64,000 nt of DNA from Isotricha intestinalis. Its lineage: Eukaryota; Ciliophora; Litostomatea; Vestibuliferida; Isotrichidae. Below the pieces are notes generated by a model, which saw nothing but the letters and a program-made list of their open reading frames with translations, was not told where the DNA came from and did no database searches. The position numbers and the translations under genes are program-made. Where the stretch lies: the NCBI GenBank assembly GCA_023807065.1, contig JAJJLU010000336.1, forward strand, positions 39,177 to 103,176. The letters are read 5' to 3'. Positions 17,281 to 64,000 of the stretch are shown one piece after another. Each line of letters starts with the position of its first letter. Positions within the stretch are counted from its first letter, which is position 1.

Positions 17281-17728
17281 AATTTTATTTTTTATTTAAA
17301 AAATTTTATTATAATATTTTTTTAGATTGAAAAATTTTTTTCATTTTTTAATTTGTTTTATTTTATTGAAAATAATTTCAGAAATCAAAAATAGAAAAAA
17401 TATTTTTATCTCATTGAGAATTAAATATTGATAATAATGACAGTTAGTGTTAATATTAATTTAGAAAAAGAAACTATTATTCTTACTGAAAAAGTACTTA
17501 AAATGTTTGATAAACTATAAATTTTTTTTGATGAAAATTTTTTTAAAAAATAAAAAATAAATAATGTTTTTATTCCTTATAATATCTTAATCCTTGATTC
17601 TTATCCAAAATTCATTATATTTTCATTTTTCTCTCCAATCCATAAAAAGTTTTATTATATAAAGAAATAATTTATTATTTGTAAGATATAAATATTTAAT
17701 TTTCACTATTTCCTATTAAATATAATAT
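17281..17728. other. AT-rich intergenic region
   Basis: This is about 450 bp between the gene remnant and the ENN-repeat gene. It contains a 27-codon ATG frame at 17437-17520 (MTVSVNINLEKETIIL...), too short and isolated to call a gene. It might be one more piece of the decayed zone. The promoter of the ENN-repeat gene lies at the right end. Confidence 0.4.
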
Positions 17729-19138
17729 ATGAGTAAAGAACAAGATGCTCAAATTGTAAATGTAAATATTGAAAAAAGTGATTCATCTGAGAAAGAATTA
17801 AAACAGGAAAATAATGAAGAATTAAATACAAACAATGAAGTTAAAAAAAACAATGAAATTGAAGAAAACAACGAAAACAATAAAAACAACGAAAACAATG
17901 AAAACAACGAAAACAACGAAAACAACGAAAACAACGAAAACAATGAAAACAATGAAAACAATGAAAAAAATGAAAACAATGAAAACAATGAAAACAATAA
18001 AAACAATGAAAAAAATGAAAAAAATGAAAACAATGAAAACAATGAAAACAATGAAAAAAATGAAAACAATGAAAACAATAAAAACAATGAAAAAAATGAA
18101 AAAAATGAAAACAATGAAAAAAATGAAAACAATGAAAACAATAAAAACAATGAAAAAAATGAAAACAATGAAAACAATGAAAAAAATGAAAACAATGAAA
18201 ACAATAAAAACAATGAAAAAAATGAAAACAATGAAAACAATAAAAACAATAAAAACAATGAAAACAATGTGGTTCTAAATTTAGAAAATATAAAATTACA
18301 ATTAAATGAAAAAAATATATTCCTTCCTTCGGAAACAATTAAAAAATTAAATCTTTCACCATGTCTAAAATGTCAATCAAAAAATTATTCTGTGTATTTC
18401 CCAGAAGCTAAAGTTTCTCTTGATACACAACCTCAAAATACAGAACAACAACAAACAAATAATAATATTGAACTTCAGACTATAAATAATACTGAAAAGC
18501 AAATTTATTCTTTTCCAGTTTTAATATGTGAAGAAAAACATCAATTTTGCTTATTTTGTAATAAATTTTTTCATCAAGATTCCCCTTGTGAAAAAGAGTA
18601 TTTGAATCAAGATAATATTAATTCAAAGTTAGAAATTATTAAAGATGCCCTACCAGAAGAAAAGAAAAATGCTTTAGATTCTATAAACAATTATAATTCA
18701 ATCCAATCAACAAATAGAAGTTGTTCAGGCCCTTGTTCCTGTTATACAATTTTGTTTTTATTTTTATTATTTTTATGGACTATAGCTTCAATTGCTCTTT
18801 TTGCTTTGGGTCTTGCTTTATTATTTATAGCTTTTGCTCTAGAAATTTTTTGTTGTTTATTTAAAATTTGTTGTTGTTTTTGTTGTTTTAAATCTGAAGA
18901 AGAAAATAAAGGAAATTATGTTGTAAGCACTACCACTATAGATTTAGGTTTTGTTGTGGAAGGAAAAGAAAATTTGGAATGCAAACAAAAAGAAATTGAG
19001 AGAGTTCCAGAAAAAGAAGCTGATTGCTTACTAAGTTGTGCACCTTCATTCTTATGTTTTTCTATTAAGTTAATACCAAAAGGATATAAAAAAATTTGCA
19101 ATCTTTATGGGGATTGGCTGAAAGAAATAGAAAATTAA
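17729..19138 (+). CDS. Membrane protein with ENN-repeat tract, Cys/His cluster and Cys-flanked hydrophobic hairpin
   Basis: The 469-residue product has four parts. Residues 46-180 are 45 tandem tripeptides, mostly Glu-Asn-Asn, Lys-Asn-Asn and Glu-Lys-Asn, encoded by a 9-nt minisatellite. A Cys/His cluster follows: CLKC at about 212-215, then, in the 270s and 280s, CEEKHQFCLFCNKFFH and DSPC, which suggests a zinc-binding fold. A long hydrophobic stretch at about 340-375 (CSCYTILFLFLLFLWTIASI and on) could form one long or two short membrane spans. A Cys-rich cytoplasmic turn (CCCFCC) probably becomes palmitoylated. The tail is a Cys-containing 90-residue domain. It ends in TAA. The overall design resembles membrane-anchored RING-like proteins, but the Cys spacing was not matched to a named family. 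Confidence 0.6.
   Translation: MSKEQDAQIVNVNIEKSDSSEKELKQENNEELNTNNEVKKNNEIEENNENNKNNENNENNENNENNENNENNENNENNEKNENNENNENNKNNEKNEKNENNENNENNEKNENNENNKNNEKNEKNENNEKNENNENNKNNEKNENNENNEKNENNENNKNNEKNENNENNKNNKNNENNVVLNLENIKLQLNEKNIFLPSETIKKLNLSPCLKCQSKNYSVYFPEAKVSLDTQPQNTEQQQTNNNIELQTINNTEKQIYSFPVLICEEKHQFCLFCNKFFHQDSPCEKEYLNQDNINSKLEIIKDALPEEKKNALDSINNYNSIQSTNRSCSGPCSCYTILFLFLLFLWTIASIALFALGLALLFIAFALEIFCCLFKICCCFCCFKSEEENKGNYVVSTTTIDLGFVVEGKENLECKQKEIERVPEKEADCLLSCAPSFLCFSIKLIPKGYKKICNLYGDWLKEIEN
17864..18268 (+). repeat. 9-nt coding minisatellite, 45 units
   Basis: There are exactly 405 bp of GAAAACAAT-type units (variants GAAAAAAAT, AAAAACAAT, and GAAAACAAC early in the tract), in frame with the membrane-protein gene and coding ENN/EKN/KNN. 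The higher-order pattern repeats in blocks of a few units, which suggests unequal exchange or slippage. Because the unit is a multiple of three with no stop on most frames, it leaves long open shadows in two other frames; those are not genes. Confidence 0.95.
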
Positions 19139-44930: not shown

Positions 44931-47900
44931 TTATTCTAAGTAAGTTTGATAATTATCACCTGTTATTTTTTCTATAACATTAATTAATTGCACAGTTTCT
45001 TTTTGAACATTTTCATTTGAATCTTCAAGTAAATCTGCAATTGCAGGGACTATATCACTTACTAAAGTTAAATATCTTTCTTTTAAATTTTCAAATAAAT
45101 ATAAAATGATTTTTATAAGTAATAATCTTGATATATAATTTTCTTCTCTTGTTAAATTTAATAATTCATCATTAAATTCTTTAAATTGATTATCTGATTT
45201 TATATTTTTAAACATTTCTAAAACACAATCTTTAATTGAATCTTCGTAATAATCATTCATTTCTTTTTCATTTCCATTTAATTTAAATTGTTCTATTATT
45301 GGTTCATATAATTCTTCAATTATTTCTGATATTAATTCACCTTTTGAATATTTAAAATTTAATTTAATATTTTCAATAAGTAAATTTGATAATTTTAAAT
45401 ATGAAAAATTTTCATTAATATCTGATTCATCTTCTGTTCTTTTATGCTTTTTATTTAGTTTTTTTGGAGTATTATTCTTTTTGAAAAGTGAAGCATTTGA
45501 AAAAGCTATTAATTCAATTTCAGTTTTTTTATATTTTGGATAATAATTATTTATAAATATATCTCTTATAACATTTAATAATGTATTAAATAGTTGAAAA
45601 ACAATAATACTATTTGTAACTTTATATTCTCTATTATCATTTCTTTCATTTAAAAATTCTAAAAGATATTCAAATATTTTTTTTAATTGTTTTTCATTCA
45701 TTTTTAAAATTAAAGTTTTAAGACAAATTTGAATATCATTTAAATAATTTTGAGATGATTTTAAAATTTCAATAAAAAATTTTATTAAATCCATATATAC
45801 ATCTACAATAACAATTTTATCTGCATTTAATATTATAGAATTGAAAAAATATAAAATTAAAGAATTAATATTTGTTTGATTGTATTTAATTGATTCAAAA
45901 GAAGAATCAAATTCATTTTGTTTAGCAATTTGACTTAATAAATTTTTAATAATTTCATTATTGTTTTCTTCAAAAGGAAGATTTGTAATTACTTTAATAA
46001 AGTCATTTAAAAAAGGTGCAATATAACCACATAAATTTGCTTTTGTTAAATCATTTAAATTTTCAAGAATTAAATCTTTAATTTCTTTTGTTAAATTATT
46101 TATATTTTCTTCATTTATTTTTAATCCATCTATAAATATTGGAATAAAATCATTGAAAAAGGAAATGAAATTTACATCGAAAATATTAAAGACATGAATT
46201 AAGTATTTAAAAATTGAAAATTGATATAAATAAAATATAGAATCATAATTTTTTGGTTTTTGTTTTAAATCTGTTTTTATTATTTCTTTTAAACCTTTTT
46301 TGATTAATTCAGAATTACTTTCACTATTTGTTAATTTTGTAATTAGTTTATATATGTAAACTAAATTCTCATTTTTTGTTTCTTTTTTATTTAATATAAT
46401 TTCATTTATAATATATTCATTTAACAATTGAGTTGATGATGGAATTAATGGTGTAATTTCTTTTAAAATAAAATTTTTAGATTTTGAATATTTGGTTTTA
46501 TCTTTTATATTATATAAAGTTTGGAATAAATAAGAAAATAAATTTTGTTTTTTTGAAAATTGAATAATTTTTTCTGTAATTTCTTTATTTTTATTAAATA
46601 TATTAGTTATAATATTTAATATAATTTCAGAAATCTCTTCAATTGAATTATCATTCATTGAATCTTCAAAAAAATGATTTTTCAATTTTAACAAATTTGA
46701 AATGATATTATCTTCTAAGTCTAATACAATTTTATCTTTTGTATCTTTGAAAATAAGTAAATTTTCCATTAATTTAGTCCATTCATATAAATTATTATAA
46801 AAACTATTATTCTCATTAATAATAAATTTATTTAATACCTCATTTTTTTCATATTGAAACTTTTCATAAATTTTATAATAAAAAAAGGCCAAACAAATTC
46901 CTTTCATAATACTAGTCTTTGATAATTTTAAAAGTATATTAGAGTTAATATCTATTTCAGAATGTTTAACAATTAAATCTATATATTTATAATACATAAT
47001 AATATTTTTTTCATCAAATTTTACATTTTCAATAAACTCAATTAATAATGTAAATATTATATTTATTATTTCTGATTTTATCATAATTGCCAATTGATTA
47101 TTTTCCATAATAATATTATAAGATTTTATAATTAAAGTATTATCATATCCTTTAATTAATAATGATAAATTATTTGAAGTTCCTAAAATTAATTGAATCT
47201 TTTTTTCTTGTTCATAATTTAATTCATTTTCAATGTCAAGGGATTCTATTAATTTTTTGAAAATTTCATCCAATTGATTCATTAATTCTATATAATCTTC
47301 TTTTGAAATACTTTTTAAAGATTTACTAAGAGTAAAAATAGAATAACAAATGCTAATAATAATATCTTTTGTTAATTTTAATATTTGGAAAGTTTTTTTT
47401 AATATTTCAACATTTTCATAATTTGGATGAATAATTATACATTTAAAGAAATATATGATTTGTTTTTCATCAATTTTATTTTTTTTAATTGAATTAATTA
47501 TATAAGTTAAATATTTATCTAATTCATTTTCATTAAATTGTAAATCAAATTGAAATGGATTTATATTATTTTTCACACAAAAACTAATTACAATAAACAA
47601 TTCTTCTGGTTTTTTAAGAGAATTTAATGAAAAACCATCTTTAAATAAAATATCTATTATATCTTGTGATAAATTTTGATGATTTTTATCTTTTAAAAAG
47701 AAAATAATTTCTTTTTCAGTATGAGGAAAATATGTTAAAAAATTTTTAAGAAGTAAATTACATAATTTATTATTATTAATTGATTTTTCAATATGATTAA
47801 GTAATTGACTTTTATTATTATTATCAAATACAATTTTTTTGGTAAATAAAGACAAAAGTTTAATTGTAATATTTTCAAAATTTTCATCATAAACAGGAAT

Positions 47901-50351
47901 TAATAAATTACATAAAATAATATATAAATTTTGAACATCAATTAAACTAGATTCAAATAATCTATAAATATAATTTTTATTAATTTTTAATTCATTTTTA
48001 TCATTATAAACAGTTTCTTTTAATTTATTAAAACATTCTTGAGATTCACTTGAAAATTTTAATTTAGATTCATTATTATTTATTAAAGATATTAAAGAAG
48101 AAAAAATACATTTTCTTTTTGTCCCAAAAAATATAGATAAATTATCATAGGACATATCTGAAAGATGCATTAAAAGTGATATTGTTAAAAGTAGTTCTTC
48201 ATTTGATGAATCTCTCATAAAATTTGAAATAAAGTTTAAAAGAGTTTTATTTGTTTTATTTTTTAATAAAGAATATGCCAAATAAATTTGTTTATTTTTT
48301 GGAAAATGAGTATCTAATACTATTGTAAAATATGTTTGAAATTCATCATAATTTTTTAATAATATTTTAGTTAATGTATCTATATGATTAAGTTTATTAT
48401 TTACATTTGAAACATATGTTATGTATCCTCTTAAAATTGAATAATATAATTTTTCATAATATTTATATGTATTTATTTCATCTAATAAATTTTCTATTGA
48501 ATTTAATTCTTCTTCATTTTCTATATCATTTGGTTTTTTATAAATATTTTCAAACATTGTTATTATACATTTTATATTTAATCCTTTATTTGTTTCTTTA
48601 GAAGAATTAATTATTTCATTTAAGTAATTTATAAAATCTATTTTTTTATATGAAAAATTAATATCTTTTAAACTTTGATTTTTGGTAAAATAAATATTTT
48701 TATATAAATCAAATTTAACATTTGAATCTTTATATATTGAAGATAAAAATTTTTCAATATTATATTTAAACCCTTCACTATATTTATTACTATTATATTT
48801 TTGTAAGCTTTCAAAATAAAAATTTAATATTTCATTTGAAATTAATTTTAAATCTATATTTTTCATATTTAAAATAGAATTCAAAATAATTTCATCATCA
48901 AACATAATAAATTTAGAAGATAAAGCAGATAAAATATTTTCTTGATTAGCTTCATTTTTATTTATATTTAACTCTCTAATTGCATTCATAACTTGAGGAA
49001 CACTAGAACTAATTAAATTTAAATATAATGAAAGATTATCATTTACAATTGGAAGATTATTTAATTTATTTTCTTTATATAATTGAATAAAAGCAACATT
49101 TACATTTTTTAAATTTAAATCTTCTATATTATTCCAATTATTAAATGTTTTATTTTTACATAATAATAACATTATTTTCTTTACTAAATCTATATTTTCA
49201 AAAAAAGGAGTTATTATATTTTGGTTAATTTTGGATAAAATAAATTCTAAAATTAAATATTCTAAATTTTCAAAATTATTTAACATTTCTTTTGATATAT
49301 TTGATATTCCTTTAACTTTTTCATCGAAATTATTTAATACTTCCTTTTTAAATAAAGGTAAATTTTTATCAGTTAAACTTTCATAATAATTTTTAGAAAT
49401 TAATTTACTGATTGATAAAAGACTAAATATTTCATTTTGATTTTCATTATCAAGTTTACTAAATATTTTAATTATAATATCATTTTCTAAAGCTTTTAAA
49501 ATTTCGTTATTAAAATTTAAATGTGTTAAAAAAGAATTAAGAAGAGAATGATAAGTTGATATATAATTTATAATATTATTTTCTGATTCAAGAATTTCTC
49601 CTATTTTATTATTAAAAAAATTTATAAATTTCATACATAATAAAAAGAAATTTTTATCTCTATCTTTATTTACAGAATTCATATTACTAACTTTATATTT
49701 AAGAATATCACTTAAAAAAATAAAATAATCATAATTTCTTAAACTTATATTATCAATATAATAATATATTACTTTTGATAAAAAATTAAAATTAGGAGAA
49801 TCAGATAAATATTTAATTAAACTATCTTTTGAAATGATTATTCCATTTTTTGCATAATTTTCTAAAAATTGATAATTTTCACTTTCTTTAAAATTAATAT
49901 TTTGTAATAATTTAATAAATATATTATCATAATAATAACATAAATAAGGTAATAAATAATCATCAACTAAAAATAAATTAACTTTATAAACTCTTATTAA
50001 ATATTCTATTACCATATGGGAATTTTTATTATGAAAATAAAAGCTTAAATCAATTAATAATTCTTTTAATTTATTATCATATTCTTTTAATTCTGAATTT
50101 GGAATCATTTCTCTATTAAAATATTTAGAAGTTGATGAAAAAAATTGTTTAAGATATTTCATAAATTTATCATTTATTTCTGCTAAATTTTTAAGACCTT
50201 CATATCCTATTTCATATATTGAATCTACTTCTATAAAATTGGCATATCTAAAATCAAATAATAAAGAACTTTGTCCCTTATATGGAAGTTGTGGACTTGT
50301 TTTTTGGTTTTGTTTTAATCTTTCTAATTGACTTTTTAAACTTTCTTGCAT
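44931..50351 (-). CDS. UTP10: UTP10/HEATR1, small-subunit processome HEAT-repeat protein
   Basis: The 1806-residue length suits the family (yeast about 1770, human about 2140). The N-terminus matches UTP10/HEATR1: SLLFDFRYANFIEVDSIY, then YEGLKNL, FFSSTSKYFNREM where the family has SLLFD, D-TIY-I-A-YEGL, LFS-SK-DRE. The middle is HEAT-like helices throughout. The C-terminus (about 1560-1806) has the BP28CT region, ending VPAIADLLEDSNENVQKETV. In the t-UTP/UtpA complex it supports rDNA transcription and early 18S pre-rRNA processing in the nucleolus. Identification rests on the N- and C-terminal patterns; the middle is too divergent to help. Confidence 0.85.
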   Translation of the reverse strand: MQESLKSQLERLKQNQKTSPQLPYKGQSSLLFDFRYANFIEVDSIYEIGYEGLKNLAEINDKFMKYLKQFFSSTSKYFNREMIPNSELKEYDNKLKELLIDLSFYFHNKNSHMVIEYLIRVYKVNLFLVDDYLLPYLCYYYDNIFIKLLQNINFKESENYQFLENYAKNGIIISKDSLIKYLSDSPNFNFLSKVIYYYIDNISLRNYDYFIFLSDILKYKVSNMNSVNKDRDKNFFLLCMKFINFFNNKIGEILESENNIINYISTYHSLLNSFLTHLNFNNEILKALENDIIIKIFSKLDNENQNEIFSLLSISKLISKNYYESLTDKNLPLFKKEVLNNFDEKVKGISNISKEMLNNFENLEYLILEFILSKINQNIITPFFENIDLVKKIMLLLCKNKTFNNWNNIEDLNLKNVNVAFIQLYKENKLNNLPIVNDNLSLYLNLISSSVPQVMNAIRELNINKNEANQENILSALSSKFIMFDDEIILNSILNMKNIDLKLISNEILNFYFESLQKYNSNKYSEGFKYNIEKFLSSIYKDSNVKFDLYKNIYFTKNQSLKDINFSYKKIDFINYLNEIINSSKETNKGLNIKCIITMFENIYKKPNDIENEEELNSIENLLDEINTYKYYEKLYYSILRGYITYVSNVNNKLNHIDTLTKILLKNYDEFQTYFTIVLDTHFPKNKQIYLAYSLLKNKTNKTLLNFISNFMRDSSNEELLLTISLLMHLSDMSYDNLSIFFGTKRKCIFSSLISLINNNESKLKFSSESQECFNKLKETVYNDKNELKINKNYIYRLFESSLIDVQNLYIILCNLLIPVYDENFENITIKLLSLFTKKIVFDNNNKSQLLNHIEKSINNNKLCNLLLKNFLTYFPHTEKEIIFFLKDKNHQNLSQDIIDILFKDGFSLNSLKKPEELFIVISFCVKNNINPFQFDLQFNENELDKYLTYIINSIKKNKIDEKQIIYFFKCIIIHPNYENVEILKKTFQILKLTKDIIISICYSIFTLSKSLKSISKEDYIELMNQLDEIFKKLIESLDIENELNYEQEKKIQLILGTSNNLSLLIKGYDNTLIIKSYNIIMENNQLAIMIKSEIINIIFTLLIEFIENVKFDEKNIIMYYKYIDLIVKHSEIDINSNILLKLSKTSIMKGICLAFFYYKIYEKFQYEKNEVLNKFIINENNSFYNNLYEWTKLMENLLIFKDTKDKIVLDLEDNIISNLLKLKNHFFEDSMNDNSIEEISEIILNIITNIFNKNKEITEKIIQFSKKQNLFSYLFQTLYNIKDKTKYSKSKNFILKEITPLIPSSTQLLNEYIINEIILNKKETKNENLVYIYKLITKLTNSESNSELIKKGLKEIIKTDLKQKPKNYDSIFYLYQFSIFKYLIHVFNIFDVNFISFFNDFIPIFIDGLKINEENINNLTKEIKDLILENLNDLTKANLCGYIAPFLNDFIKVITNLPFEENNNEIIKNLLSQIAKQNEFDSSFESIKYNQTNINSLILYFFNSIILNADKIVIVDVYMDLIKFFIEILKSSQNYLNDIQICLKTLILKMNEKQLKKIFEYLLEFLNERNDNREYKVTNSIIVFQLFNTLLNVIRDIFINNYYPKYKKTEIELIAFSNASLFKKNNTPKKLNKKHKRTEDESDINENFSYLKLSNLLIENIKLNFKYSKGELISEIIEELYEPIIEQFKLNGNEKEMNDYYEDSIKDCVLEMFKNIKSDNQFKEFNDELLNLTREENYISRLLLIKIILYLFENLKERYLTLVSDIVPAIADLLEDSNENVQKETVQLINVIEKITGDNYQTYLE

Positions 50352-50660
50352 CTTTTAGAATAAAAAAATTTAATTTTAAATGATAAATAATAATTTATTT
50401 TTTTTATCATTTTCAAAAAATTATTAATAAAATAATAATTATTGAAAAATTTAATATAAAATAACCAAGTTATTTCTTAAAAAATAAAATAGAATCTATA
50501 ACATTAATTATTTTAATAAATCTTAATTATACTTCAATTCCTAATAATCTTTCAGAAAAAATTTTTAGATAATAATGATTTAATTAAATAATACTTATTT
50601 TATTTAACTTCTAAATATGATACAAAAGTTAAAAAACTAAAATAAATTAAAAAAAAAAAA
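50352..50660. other. 309-bp intergenic region
   Basis: This gap lies between UTP10 and AnmK, both on the minus strand, and is A/T-rich. It would contain the UTP10 promoter and the AnmK 3' region. No other signal is seen. Confidence 0.4.
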
Positions 50661-51797
50661 TCAATAAGAAATTTTTCCCATAATAACAGGACAATCAGCT
50701 CCAGTACATTCAGGAACATTATTAAATTTTTTTTCCAAAGCAAAATATCCTAAATAACCAAAAGCAATAGGTTCTTTTAATTTATTGGGAATACCATAAT
50801 CTTCATGTGTATGAATAATAACATTAGGCATATAAAATTTCATATATTTAATTAAAGTTTTATTATAAGCTCCTCCTCCTCCTAAAATAATTTCATCAAT
50901 ATTAGTTTTGTCTAAAATAAACTTATTATATGAATCAATTATTCCTTTCGCAGTCATTGCAGTTAAAGTAGCAATAATATCATATTTATTTTCAGGAGCT
51001 TTTAAATATATTTTTTCAGCATATTCATTATTAAACAATTCTCTTCCTGTTGTTTTAGGTGGTTTTAAATTATAATATGGTTCACTTAATAATTCTTTTA
51101 ACCATTTATCATTAATTTTCCCTTGCGATGCTATTATTCCATTTTCATCATAATTTTTATTAAAAAGTTTCTTAACAAAATAATCAATTAAAATATTACC
51201 AACTCCATTATCAAAAGCAAATATATTACATTTATTCGAAATTACAGTAACATTAGATATACCTCCTATATTTTGAATACATTTATTATTATTATTTTTT
51301 GAAGAAAAATACATTTTATCAAAAAAAGGAACTAAAGGTGCTCCTTGTCCATTAGCAGCAATATCTTTCGTTCTAAAATCTCCTATTGTCATTATTTTAG
51401 TTTTATAAGAAATAACTGATATATCTCCTATTTGAAGTGTACTTTTAGTTTTTATTCCTCCTAATTCAACTTCTTTTGGTTTATGATATATTGTTTGTCC
51501 ATGTGATGAAACAAAATCAATTTGATTTGGAGAATAGTTTACTTTTTCTAATAAATTATTTACTGCTTTTGCAAATAAATCTCCTATTATAAAATTCATT
51601 GTACATAAATCACTTATATTTCCTTTATTATTACATAATTCTAATATTTTTTCTTTTATTTCTTTTGGATATTCTAATGAATATGAATCTATTATTTCAA
51701 ATGATAAATCTTTTGTGTTTAATTTAAATAGACATGCATCTATTGAATCGATTGAAGTTCCTGACATAAGAGAAATTATTGTTTTGTACTTTTTCAT
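50661..51797 (-). CDS. anmK: Anhydro-N-acetylmuramic acid kinase (AnmK)
   Basis: This enzyme phosphorylates 1,6-anhydro-N-acetylmuramic acid, a peptidoglycan breakdown product, with ring opening to MurNAc-6-phosphate. The 378 residues fit the bacterial family length, with all motifs in order: LMSGTSIDSID (10-20), SHGQT (98-102), GDFRTKDIAANGQGAPLVP (139-157), NIGGISN (176-182), FDNGVGN (195-201; the family has DTGPGN, and the catalytic Asp is D196), KPPKTTGRE (245-253), LGGGGAYN (305-312), KEPIAFGYLG (341-350). Base composition and neighbours are those of the host, so this is not contamination. A peptidoglycan-recycling enzyme in a eukaryote suggests transfer from bacteria and use on ingested cells; that role is inference. 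Confidence 0.95.
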   Translation of the reverse strand: MKKYKTIISLMSGTSIDSIDACLFKLNTKDLSFEIIDSYSLEYPKEIKEKILELCNNKGNISDLCTMNFIIGDLFAKAVNNLLEKVNYSPNQIDFVSSHGQTIYHKPKEVELGGIKTKSTLQIGDISVISYKTKIMTIGDFRTKDIAANGQGAPLVPFFDKMYFSSKNNNNKCIQNIGGISNVTVISNKCNIFAFDNGVGNILIDYFVKKLFNKNYDENGIIASQGKINDKWLKELLSEPYYNLKPPKTTGRELFNNEYAEKIYLKAPENKYDIIATLTAMTAKGIIDSYNKFILDKTNIDEIILGGGGAYNKTLIKYMKFYMPNVIIHTHEDYGIPNKLKEPIAFGYLGYFALEKKFNNVPECTGADCPVIMGKISY

Positions 51798-51918
51798 TAT
51801 ATTAAAATTTAGTTAAAATGAAATTTTAATATTAATATATTATGGAAATATTTTAAATATACTACTTTATTTAATTCTATTATATAATTTTTTAAAAAAT
51901 GAATTTTTTAATTTTTTT

Positions 51919-53997
51919 TTACTCATTTTTTTCCTCTTCTTCTTCTTCTTTAGGAATAAAAACTCGTAAAGGAACAATTTCTTTTTGGTAATTTTGTGCT
52001 AAATTATTTCCTAATTCAATAACAAAAGAATCATAATTATCATTAATTTGTTTTATTAAATTATCTTTTTCTCCTTCTTCAAATTTAAAAGTAAAATCAA
52101 TACAATCAATAAAATTTTTTCTCCAAACTTTATCAAAATTTTGATTAATACAAATAATTTTTAATTTCTCAGAAACAAAAGGCATAGTATATATTTTTTC
52201 AGAGAAAAAATGAGGATAATAATTTTTAGCACCTTTCTTATTTTTTTTCATAGTAGCTAATTTACTTTTAGGCTTATCATCAATTTTTTCATTTGGATTT
52301 TCAAGAGGAATAATTTCAGGTTGAAGTAAACAAATACATTCTAAAGGAATTTCATCGATAGATAAATCTCTTTTAGCAAATTTAACAACTCCAAAGTCAT
52401 TTCCATTTCTAAACTTATCTAAAATTAATTTAAATGTTTTAAAATAAGTTTCTTCTATATTTTCTAACCCAATCGAATTTTTAGCAGTATCAAAAAAAAA
52501 GTGTAATATATCATCATTAATTAAAGTATTTTCATAAAATTTTTGAATTACTAGATTAAATTTATCATCATTAGATTTAGATATATCTTCAATGGTTTCA
52601 ATATTTTCATCAATTAATTTATATGATTCAATATCTTCATTTTTATAAATGAAAATAAAAGAATGTGATTTTTCCATATAAATATTTAATATTTTATTTA
52701 TTTTTTCATCATCTAAAAATTCAGGATTAATCTTATTTATTAATTCAATTAATAAAGAAATTTGTCCTATAACTCCTCCACAAAGAGTAAATCCTTTATC
52801 TTTTTGATAAAAACCATTTATATCAAATATATTATCTGGTGAATTATCTTCTATAAATTCAGCTTCTTTTAATAAATTTTCTCTTAAAATTTGTCTTATT
52901 CCATCTAATATTTTTTCATGTTTTCTTCTTGCTCTTTCTTCTTTTTTTCTTTTAATTTCTTCAGCTTCTCTTATTTTCAATATTTCTCTTATTCTAACAT
53001 TTTCTTCTAATCTTTTTTTCTCATTTATAATAGATTTAACATGTTCTTCATTTGTTTCTTTTATGTATTTATATTTTAACATTTTTTGAATATTGTCTAA
53101 ATTAGAATAATCATATTTAAATTCTGTATCTGCAATATTTTCTAAATCTGGTAATAAATCTGTATAAAAATCTTTTGAGTCAGGAGTTTTATATAATCCT
53201 CTTTCTTTCATATATTCATGTGTTTGATTATATATTTTATTAATATATTGTTTAGCTTTAATTCTACTATATAATTTTTTCTGAAAAAATTTAGTCATTT
53301 CTAATCTTTTAATTTTATCATTTTTTTTCAATTTCATTTCCTCATATTTCTCCTTTTCTATATTTTCAATATTTTTAATTCTTTCTTTTTCTTGATTTTC
53401 TAAATCTTTATATTTATTTTGTTGTTCTTGGATCATTTTTAATTCTTCTTCTTCTAAAACTTCTCTTCTAGAATCTTCTAAAGTTTTACTAACAATAATA
53501 GAAACAAGAGGTTTAACTTCTAAAGTAAAATTAAATAAATCACCATCATTAACTTGAGTTTCAACATCAATTCCTTTTTTTTGAGGCCAAATTAATATTG
53601 GAACGGGTTTTTCTGGTAAAGGATCAGTTTGAATTATTTCATCAAAAGAAATTGGTTTTGGCATTAAAGTTGAATTAACTTTTTCAGTAAAAATACCAAA
53701 ACCATCATTATTATATTTATTCTTCTTTTCTTCTTCTGTTTTTTTCTCTGCATCTATTGAGTATTTATTCTTAAAATTAAAAATTCTTTTTTGATTATTT
53801 TGATTTTGATTTTTTTTATTCTCTGAATTCGGAATTGTGTTATCGTATGATGATGATGTTACATATACTACTCCAAAATTGTGACCACGACGAAGACGAG
53901 GATCTGTTACAAAGTTGTATGTTAGTTTTGAAGATGAGGGATTAAAGGAACTTTTGTTTTCTATCACTTGGGGATTTATGTTTAAGGAATTTTGCAT
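51919..53997 (-). CDS. RSP3: Radial spoke protein 3 homologue (RSP3), with long extra C-terminus
   Basis: RSP3 anchors the radial spoke to the axoneme doublet and is an A-kinase anchoring protein. The 692-residue product matches the family core. It has PRLRRGHNFGVVYVTSS near 33-49 (family 'DRRVVRGNTY'), then GIDVETQVNDGDLFNF near 136 (family 'G-DV-TQI--GELFDFD'), EVKPLVSIIVSKTLE, and a long Glu/Arg coiled coil with REVLEEEEL. The segment KAKQYINKIYNQT to about 290 (PDLENI) completes the core. The remaining about 400 residues are outside the usual length (400-560 aa family) and unrecognised. It ends in acidic Glu runs. Its presence implies motile cilia. Confidence 0.85.
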   Translation of the reverse strand: MQNSLNINPQVIENKSSFNPSSSKLTYNFVTDPRLRRGHNFGVVYVTSSSYDNTIPNSENKKNQNQNNQKRIFNFKNKYSIDAEKKTEEEKKNKYNNDGFGIFTEKVNSTLMPKPISFDEIIQTDPLPEKPVPILIWPQKKGIDVETQVNDGDLFNFTLEVKPLVSIIVSKTLEDSRREVLEEEELKMIQEQQNKYKDLENQEKERIKNIENIEKEKYEEMKLKKNDKIKRLEMTKFFQKKLYSRIKAKQYINKIYNQTHEYMKERGLYKTPDSKDFYTDLLPDLENIADTEFKYDYSNLDNIQKMLKYKYIKETNEEHVKSIINEKKRLEENVRIREILKIREAEEIKRKKEERARRKHEKILDGIRQILRENLLKEAEFIEDNSPDNIFDINGFYQKDKGFTLCGGVIGQISLLIELINKINPEFLDDEKINKILNIYMEKSHSFIFIYKNEDIESYKLIDENIETIEDISKSNDDKFNLVIQKFYENTLINDDILHFFFDTAKNSIGLENIEETYFKTFKLILDKFRNGNDFGVVKFAKRDLSIDEIPLECICLLQPEIIPLENPNEKIDDKPKSKLATMKKNKKGAKNYYPHFFSEKIYTMPFVSEKLKIICINQNFDKVWRKNFIDCIDFTFKFEEGEKDNLIKQINDNYDSFVIELGNNLAQNYQKEIVPLRVFIPKEEEEEEKNE

Positions 53998-54302
53998 TTT
54001 TTTTTTTCTTTCTTTTTTTTTATTTTTTTTTTGAATTGTTTTTTATTTTACTATTTTATGGTGGTTATATATTTTTTATATTATTTTTTAAAATTTTTTA
54101 AATTTTTTTTAAATTTATTTTTATTTTTATTTTTAAAACTCTAGAAAATATATTGTTTAAATAAAAAAATTCTTTAAATAATTATGAATTTAAAAAAGAA
54201 AAAGAAGAAGGATATTAAAAATTAAATTTAAATATTTAAATAATGTTTTTATTTAAAAATTCTTAAATTCTTTTTTATTTATTTTTATATTATTATTATT
54301 TG
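53998..54302. other. 305-bp divergent intergenic region
   Basis: This gap lies between the starts of RSP3 (minus) and the Alba protein (plus). The left part is T-runs interrupted by a TGGTGGTTATAT; the right part is A/T-rich. Both promoters lie here. No specific site can be named. Confidence 0.4.
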
Positions 54303-62953: not shown

Positions 62954-63947
62954 TTCTACTTTGATTTAAAAATAATATAAAATCTTATAAATAATATAAA
63001 AAAGTTAAAATATTAATTTTACTTCATTTTTCAAATAAAATGAAAAATACTTTCATTCAATATATCTAAAAATTGATTTTAAATCAATTTATCAAAATAA
63101 TCTTTTTTTACAAATTTATTCTAAGATTCAAAGAACAATCATTAATAATTATATTCAAAAAAATAGAAAATAATAATGATAAGAAAAAAATTATTAATAA
63201 CAATAATAGTAATAATAATTAAAGAATTTAATAAACAAAAAAATATTGCATATATATTACAAAATCCAATTTAAACAAAAGAACACCTTAATTTATTAAA
63301 TATTGTTTATTATAGTATAAATAATATTTTCCTTTAATAGAAGTTAAACAACAATAAATAAAAATAAATGAATATAAAAAATATATTTCAAAAATGAAAT
63401 ATATTATTCAAAAAGAGTTAAATAAGCAAATATTAAAAAAAACAATAAATCCTTTATCAATTTGTATTTGAATATAAAAAAATTACCTTCCAAATTAACT
63501 TTACTTTTTGAGAAAAAATAAATATTCCATCTTTAAATTTCTCCTCTCCCATTTTTTTATCAAATAAATGAACAATTTTTTTTTACTCGTTATTTTTTTT
63601 AAATTTTATTTGTTGTTATTAGTTTTTTGTTTTTTTATATCAATAAATATTTTTGGATAACTTAAATATCAAATTTTAAGGAAAATTCAAAGTTTTCTAA
63701 GAGTTAAATAAAAAAACCAAAATAAAAAAATAACTAAAATTATGTTAAATATATAAATTATATAATCAAAAAAAATAGATTATCAATATACAATATAAAA
63801 TATTAAAATATTTATTTTAACGCTTTTTTCAAATATTTAAGATTTCTCAATTTAAATTTGTGTCAGGGGGATATTTTTTTTTTTATTTAAAAAGTTTAAA
63901 AAAATTTAAAATTTCTGTTGAAACTATTTATTTCATTGTAAATTAAT
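62954..63947. other. Gene-free subtelomeric kilobase
   Basis: This is about 1 kb between the last gene (minus strand, pointing away from the telomere) and the telomere repeats. It is A/T-rich, with some short interspersed patterns (for example AATAATAGTAATAATAATT near 63200) and a GTCAGGGGG at 63861-63869. No tandem subtelomeric repeat or gene was found. The promoter of the divergent kinase gene is at its left edge. Confidence 0.5.
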
Positions 63948-64000
63948 GGGGATTGGGGATTGGGGATTGGGGATTGGGGATTGGGGATTGGGGATTGGGG
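63948..64000 (+). repeat. Telomere, (GGGGATT)n
   Basis: Seven exact GGGGATT units plus a final GGGG run to the window end, 53 bp in total. The G-rich strand points 5'->3' to the right edge, the required orientation for a chromosome end. The junction AATTAAT-GGGG is abrupt, with no degenerate transition repeats, as in de novo telomere addition. The unit is unlike Tetrahymena G4T2 or hypotrich G4T4. Confidence 0.95.

Follow-up and report, generated by a model that had tools for sequence, protein, structure and literature searches.

The anmK locus and its chromosomal setting

The window, that is, the whole stretch of 64,000 nucleotides analysed here, carries a gene for a bacterial-type anhydro-MurNAc kinase (AnmK) between two genes of eukaryotic type and ends in a telomere. 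The features discussed in this section are as follows.

44931..50354, minus strand: UTP10/HEATR1-like gene, downstream of anmK with a gap of 306 bases; PDB match 3e-23 (HEATR1 chain)
50661..51797, minus strand: anmK CDS, 378 aa, without intron and, by eye, without signal peptide
51210..51212, minus strand: codon of D196, in the motif FDNGVGN; aligns with Asp212 of levoglucosan kinase
51919..54042, minus strand: RSP3 (radial spoke protein 3), upstream of anmK with a gap of 121 bases; Pfam match 1e-39, PDB match 2e-27
63947..64000, no strand assigned: telomere repeat that closes the contig, (TGGGGAT)n as read here and (CCCCAAT)n on the complementary strand

The open frame of anmK extends from 50661 to 51812 on the minus strand, with an ATG at 51797 and a TGA stop at 50661. 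Its product matches the Pfam family AnmK (PF03702) at 7.8e-98 with 328 bits (cut-off 24), covering profile positions 3–365 of 367, and the NCBIfam equivalog NF007148 with 420 bits (cut-off 387); 13 further AnmK sub-models of NCBIfam also match, each below its own cut-off. The Asp of the FDxGxGN motif in two AnmK structures is kept as D196, which in the alignment occupies the column of D212 of levoglucosan kinase, D189 of 3cqy, and D187 of 8bre (8bre numbering), a residue that we take to be the catalytic base. A preliminary description of this DNA had called the gene intact, including its catalytic Asp, and had placed it between UTP10 and RSP3; the full-length product passing both the Pfam and NCBIfam cut-offs, the presence of D196 in FDNGVGN, and the Pfam and PDB matches of both neighbours bear out these claims. 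The ciliate protein shares its family, full length, and Asp motif with the bacterial enzymes of Pseudomonas aeruginosa (PDB 8bre) and Shewanella oneidensis (PDB 3cqy), to which it is 34 and 38% identical, respectively, over aligned columns, but, unlike theirs, its gene sits among eukaryotic genes. It is the single AnmK match in the 57.3-Mb assembly (2153 contigs). Both the identity of the gene, as a real, resident bacterial-type AnmK, and its chromosomal place are confirmed.

The contig is 103 kb long with a telomere at one end, which coincides with the window end (position 64000) and consists of 7.7 exact copies of TGGGGAT; no telomere was found in the first 120 bases of the opposite contig end. 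The available parts of two reports give CCCCAAT as the telomere repeat of Muniziella cunhai (PMC11316547) and Balantidium ctenopharyngodoni (PMC10978948). Among the 28 non-overlapping window ORFs of at least 200 aa, 23 stop with TAA and 5 with TGA, and the MurQ gene of the same genome stops with TAG; because all three triplets serve as stops, the code is the standard one, which the accessible text on Muniziella also reports (PMC11316547). The telomere repeat and the standard code point to a litostome (trichostome) gut ciliate as the likely host, and the anmK contig is likely a macronuclear chromosome. Neither N letters nor internal tandem telomere repeats were found in the window, so that no chimera is visible there. 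The window is very gene-dense, with the 28 ORFs spanning 77% of positions 1–64000, and long open frames (150–470 aa) overlap on both strands at 17726–19138, which suggests a repetitive coding stretch. The 103-kb contig with one telomere contrasts with Entodinium and Balantidium, for which chromosomes of a few kb have been reported.

Pathway partners in the same genome

Partner genes were sought by a six-frame profile search of the assembly, in which genes cut by introns may be missed. A MurQ etherase and lysozymes, which the preliminary description had proposed to look for elsewhere in the genome, were both found. MurQ is encoded by a full-length gene on contig C938 (frame 180–1118; 404.6 bits, cut-off 302), and GH25 (lysozyme family) occurs at six places, four of which have a hydrophobic N-terminus by eye. 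Amidase_2 domains (MurNAc-L-Ala amidase type) are predicted at four places in three genes, two of which were rescanned. GH3 was detected at nine places, eight of them above the cut-off. Four are single-domain NagZ-like genes that score 108–139 bits against a cut-off of 207 for NF003740 and contain by eye a motif of the type KHFPG..D[TS]H, presumably that of NagZ-type hexosaminidases; a hydrophobic N-terminus was seen by eye in three of these but not in the fourth. NagB is also encoded (TIGR00502, 269 bits; cut-off 236.9) in an intact frame whose sole TAA is its own stop.

No match was obtained in the assembly for the SLT lytic transglycosylase (PF01464), NagA (TIGR00221), Amidohydro_1 (PF01979, present in 14 of 14 control genomes), or ROK kinase families, and none that was convincing for BadF/NAGK-type kinases (PF01869), for which two weak partial matches were found on contig C153. 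As both of the latter look HSP70/HSPA12-like by eye and not like sugar kinases, a NAGK-type kinase was discarded as a candidate. The two HSP70/HSPA12-like genes (by eye), near 13.7 and 65.8 kb of C153, are very similar to one another and lie 52 kb apart; the open-frame list shows the one near 13.7 kb divided over two frames. The 'complete salvage path' envisaged in the preliminary description was therefore not recovered, and of the GlcNAc-6-P enzymes that it had named for a search, NagB was found and NagA was not. Of the kinase families searched, AnmK alone is likely to provide the MurNAc-6-P on which MurQ depends.

The MurQ gene lies at the edge, without telomere, of a 67.7-kb contig on which the adjoining genes are AT-rich and eukaryotic-looking by eye. 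Its own GC3 (0.235) is not host-like. In a quick tree of 121 rows (the best 120 of 7,998 database matches and the host copy), it falls within a group of 85 rows. The 84 database members of this group come from contigs of no more than 2,974 bases (median, 1,150) and the other 36 rows from contigs with a median of 7,210; N, K, and I are also frequent in the group, at a median fraction of 0.277 compared with 0.145 in the other 36 rows. We infer that this group represents ciliate MurQ, with many of the genes residing on gene-sized chromosomes like those described for Entodinium and Balantidium in the available part of PMC10978948. A nearby MurQ was detected at 4 of 80 bacterial AnmK loci (flanks of up to 4 kb, some shorter; the loci are described in the next section), but these four are only 44–46% identical to the ciliate MurQ, below the 63–71% of the listed MurQ matches from rank four onwards. 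A single bacterium as the donor of both AnmK and MurQ was rejected for this reason, and separate sources of the two genes are more likely.

With MurQ, lysozyme-family genes, and NagB encoded in the genome, the likeliest role of AnmK appears to be in helping a cell that feeds on bacteria to use their muropeptides, as first suggested in the preliminary description. An enzyme serving the detoxification or signalling control of muropeptides, and not nutrition, would be consistent with the failure to find NagA, which leaves a known catabolic route to fructose-6-P incomplete. It would fit less well with the presence of MurQ and NagB or with the food-related reading proposed from transcripts for Entodinium caudatum in the accessible text of PMC6925433, and such a role is considered unlikely compared with nutritional salvage.

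Substrate and origin of the kinase

Recycling of anhydro-MurNAc had been called the only known job of AnmK in the preliminary description. This is incorrect, because a yeast levoglucosan kinase belongs to the same family and is the top PDB sequence match of the window protein (221.8 bits vs 214.7 for AnmK), and because, in the available part of PMC9476349, an AnmK-annotated protein of Rhodotorula toruloides has levoglucosan kinase activity (10.65 U/mg vs 1.25 for the empty vector). Five other fungal enzymes have levoglucosan kinase activities of 1.67–2.98 in the same text (PMC9476349). The enzyme could accordingly be a kinase of bacterial descent whose present substrate is another anhydro-sugar, e.g. 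levoglucosan as in fungi, and the levoglucosan kinase also ranked first by E-value in a Foldseek search with the fold model of the window protein. The levoglucosan kinase of Lipomyces starkeyi (PDB 4yh5 and 4zlu) has the family, the fold, and a eukaryotic host in common with the ciliate AnmK, but the two are 36% identical over aligned columns, whereas the listed non-ciliate relatives are 63–71% identical to the ciliate protein.

Two AnmK structures have a common letter that differs from that of the levoglucosan kinase, represented by one sequence, at 90 columns; of these, the ciliate protein has the AnmK letter in 33, the levoglucosan-kinase letter in 12, and neither in 45. The fold model, built from 12 sequences, is only moderate (mean pLDDT 72, with low confidence in stretches within 102–153 and 359–378); it predicts the sugar-kinase fold of AnmK, with TM-scores of 0.78/0.80 to 3cqy_B and 0.77/0.80 to 3qbx_B, higher than the 0.75/0.67 to levoglucosan kinase 4yh5_B. 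The column count lowers the standing of levoglucosan kinase as the identity of the protein, a candidate raised by the top PDB match, and the protein leans towards AnmK, short of proof. MurQ of the same genome, furthermore, requires MurNAc-6-P. Levoglucosan derives from burnt biomass and is not expected in the gut. A change of substrate to another anhydro-sugar is thus regarded as slightly less probable even than detoxification or signalling, and anhydro-MurNAc is preferred as the substrate.

The best 120 of 7,999 protein-database matches scoring under 1e-20 were examined. The two best are clusters of 42 and 51 member sequences that are 96 and 86% identical to the window AnmK, respectively, and the remaining 118 are 63–71% identical. 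Few of the listed matches carry a name, and two of those that do are Candidatus Gastranaerophilales. The two clusters and the window protein have common short insertions that nine bacterial sequences aligned alongside lack, and the clusters are presumably ciliate.

In a scan of genome_contigs, 236 AnmK loci were confirmed and 80 were kept, titled Gastranaerophilales (55), Avigastranaerophilus (1), Melainabacteria (2), Cyanobacteria (2), Planctomycetia (1), or 'bacterium' only (19). This sample is biased to Gastranaerophilales because the scan required exact matches to two peptides, and members of that group abound in the alignment that supplied them; among the 80 loci, the highest identity of the window AnmK to one titled Gastranaerophilales is 70%. 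The AnmK of the locus titled Planctomycetia (L045) is 59% identical to that of the window and groups with Gastranaerophilales-type rows, pointing to mis-binning or transfer.

In a 94-row tree, the window protein and the two clusters form a trio (support 100/100) within a 73-row clade (96/98) whose other rows are 32 loci, of which 28 bear the title Gastranaerophilales, and 38 database proteins without a title. AU tests did not reject placement of the trio outside the other 70 rows held together (p 0.368), outside all 86 bacterial rows (p 0.249), or outside when a set of 50 rows that included two outgroups was used (p 0.408), where the bootstrap was unsettled. The outgroups have long branches, and in both the 94-row and the 50-row trees they drew warnings of odd composition as well; fungal and Naegleria AnmK were left out of the trees. 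The trio thus appears to group with Gastranaerophilales, with the three AU tests leaving its position as nested or sister unsettled. The donor was likely a Gastranaerophilales gut bacterium or a close unsampled relative, and the bacterial origin put forward in the preliminary description is upheld by the 63–71% identical bacterial kin and by the clade shared with Gastranaerophilales.

AnmK was present in 5 of 14 control genomes. Among 72,556 plasmid records, 132 contain AnmK, all less than 60% identical (43% being the best among 30 matches listed), and 3 of 50,697 phage records do so at 31–32% identity; an IMG/VR pattern scan for AnmK relatives gave 9 pattern matches, none related. A phage or plasmid source was rejected, as no close mobile carrier was found in these records. 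AnmK may alternatively be old in eukaryotes, with bacteria having acquired it from ciliates, or both may have obtained it from an unsampled source. The unsettled position of the trio beside the bacterial rows would permit this, and the enzyme is also named in Naegleria (PMC9928731) and in fungi (PMC9476349), as far as the available parts of these sources go. Against it stand the breadth of the family in bacteria, seen in the control genomes and plasmid records, and plasmid-borne relatives that, at 43% at best among the matches listed, are far below 71%. This history is very unlikely compared with transfer from bacteria to the ciliate.

The GC3 of anmK (0.069) lies inside the range of 11 other window genes (0.046–0.099), which were chosen by the authors and were also used to build the host codon table, and below that of all 80 bacterial anmK sequences (0.100–0.382). 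Its codon likelihood is 0.162 per codon towards the host, with values of 0.106 to 0.204 for the 11 host genes and −0.570 to 0.060 for the bacterial anmK genes. The earlier claim of host-like, AT-rich codons therefore holds, and the gene has been resident long enough to adopt the codon use of its host. The transfer was also said to be ancient; this stands in a relative sense only, since GC3 is fully adapted and the clade includes an 86% identical relative, but identity to bacterial proteins still reaches 71%. If the 86% cluster is also ciliate, the transfer predates the split of that cluster. The fusion of bacterial DNA to a ciliate contig during assembly, suggested by the high identity of the window protein to bacterial proteins, is extremely improbable given the host-range GC3 and host-favouring codon likelihood of anmK, its distances of only 306 and 121 bases from UTP10 and RSP3, the short insertions shared with the 96 and 86% clusters and missing in the nine bacterial rows, and the eukaryotic nature of those window genes that have a Pfam or PDB match (many have none).

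Proposed role and relation to earlier work

The favoured reading, to which we assign a probability of roughly 0.78, is that the window gene encodes a bacterial-type anhydro-MurNAc kinase, likely acquired from Gastranaerophilales, that likely salvages wall sugar of engulfed bacteria and supplies MurNAc-6-P to the cell's own MurQ. In this scheme, prey peptidoglycan would be dismantled in the food vacuole by Amidase_2 enzymes and GH25 muramidases, several of which have an N-terminus that looks secretion-like, and NagZ-like GH3 enzymes would remove GlcNAc. The 1,6-anhydro-MurNAc would then be carried to the cytosol by a putative transporter, where AnmK, judging from the activity of its family, would hydrolyse the anhydro bond and phosphorylate C6 with ATP. 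MurQ would split off lactate to yield GlcNAc-6-P, likewise as predicted from family activity. With NagA not found, GlcNAc-6-P would enter either the ciliate's own UDP-GlcNAc route or a putative, unrecognised deacetylase step followed by NagB.

Glycan chains cut by the lytic transglycosylases of bacteria end in a 1,6-anhydro-MurNAc cap, whereas GH25 muramidases yield reducing MurNAc ends and not anhydro ends. AnmK would therefore be fed by prey-made chain ends only. It is possible, and is put forward tentatively, that the whole constitutes a patchwork salvage line assembled from at least two donors (Gastranaerophilales for AnmK and another lineage for MurQ), which would depend on prey-made anhydro ends and direct GlcNAc-6-P to UDP-GlcNAc without NagA.

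The use of MurNAc from prey walls by a ciliate is not a new idea. In the available part of a 2019 transcriptome study, use of MurNAc and GlcNAc was proposed for Entodinium caudatum on the basis of a GlcNAc kinase, a MurNAc-6-P etherase, and an 'anhydro-GlcNAc kinase' (PMC6925433), and the Entodinium proposal thus came first. This rumen ciliate resembles the present case in its transcripts for the etherase, anhydro-sugar kinase, GlcNAc kinase, and lysozyme and in the nutritional idea. The proposal was, however, made from transcripts alone, and the accessible text remarks that some transcripts matched non-ciliate genes and gives no chromosomal locus or donor (PMC6925433). New here are the chromosomal locus, the donor group, the host-like composition, and the list of pathway gaps.

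Three other systems are related. In Camponotini ants, a bacterial MurQ with Spiroplasma as the donor was given an immune reading, and the authors called murQ transfer unreported before; in the available part of that article, 'anhydro' appears a single time, among the cited references, and AnmK is not discussed (PMC13320244). Naegleria, a protist that also feeds on bacteria, has lysozymes and an annotated AnmK; the accessible text names AnmK in a list, without analysis of origin or partners (PMC9928731). Diet-tied bacterial gene transfer into rumen ciliates, including lysozyme and hexosaminidase genes, has been described in a paper whose main text, as available, contains neither 'muram' nor 'peptidoglycan' (PMC1413528). 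No report of AnmK transfer into ciliates was found among the open-licence papers listed, judged by their titles and abstract openings. The present finding extends known kinds and does not establish a new one.

In animal guts, ciliates that feed on bacteria contribute to the turnover of microbial protein. Should they retain bacterial enzymes for the use of MurNAc, the prey wall would be a defined nutrient for a eukaryote, with a pathway testable gene by gene. If the reading proposed here is true, these ciliates would be a second eukaryotic lineage, beside the ants, with a transferred murQ, here paired with its upstream kinase.
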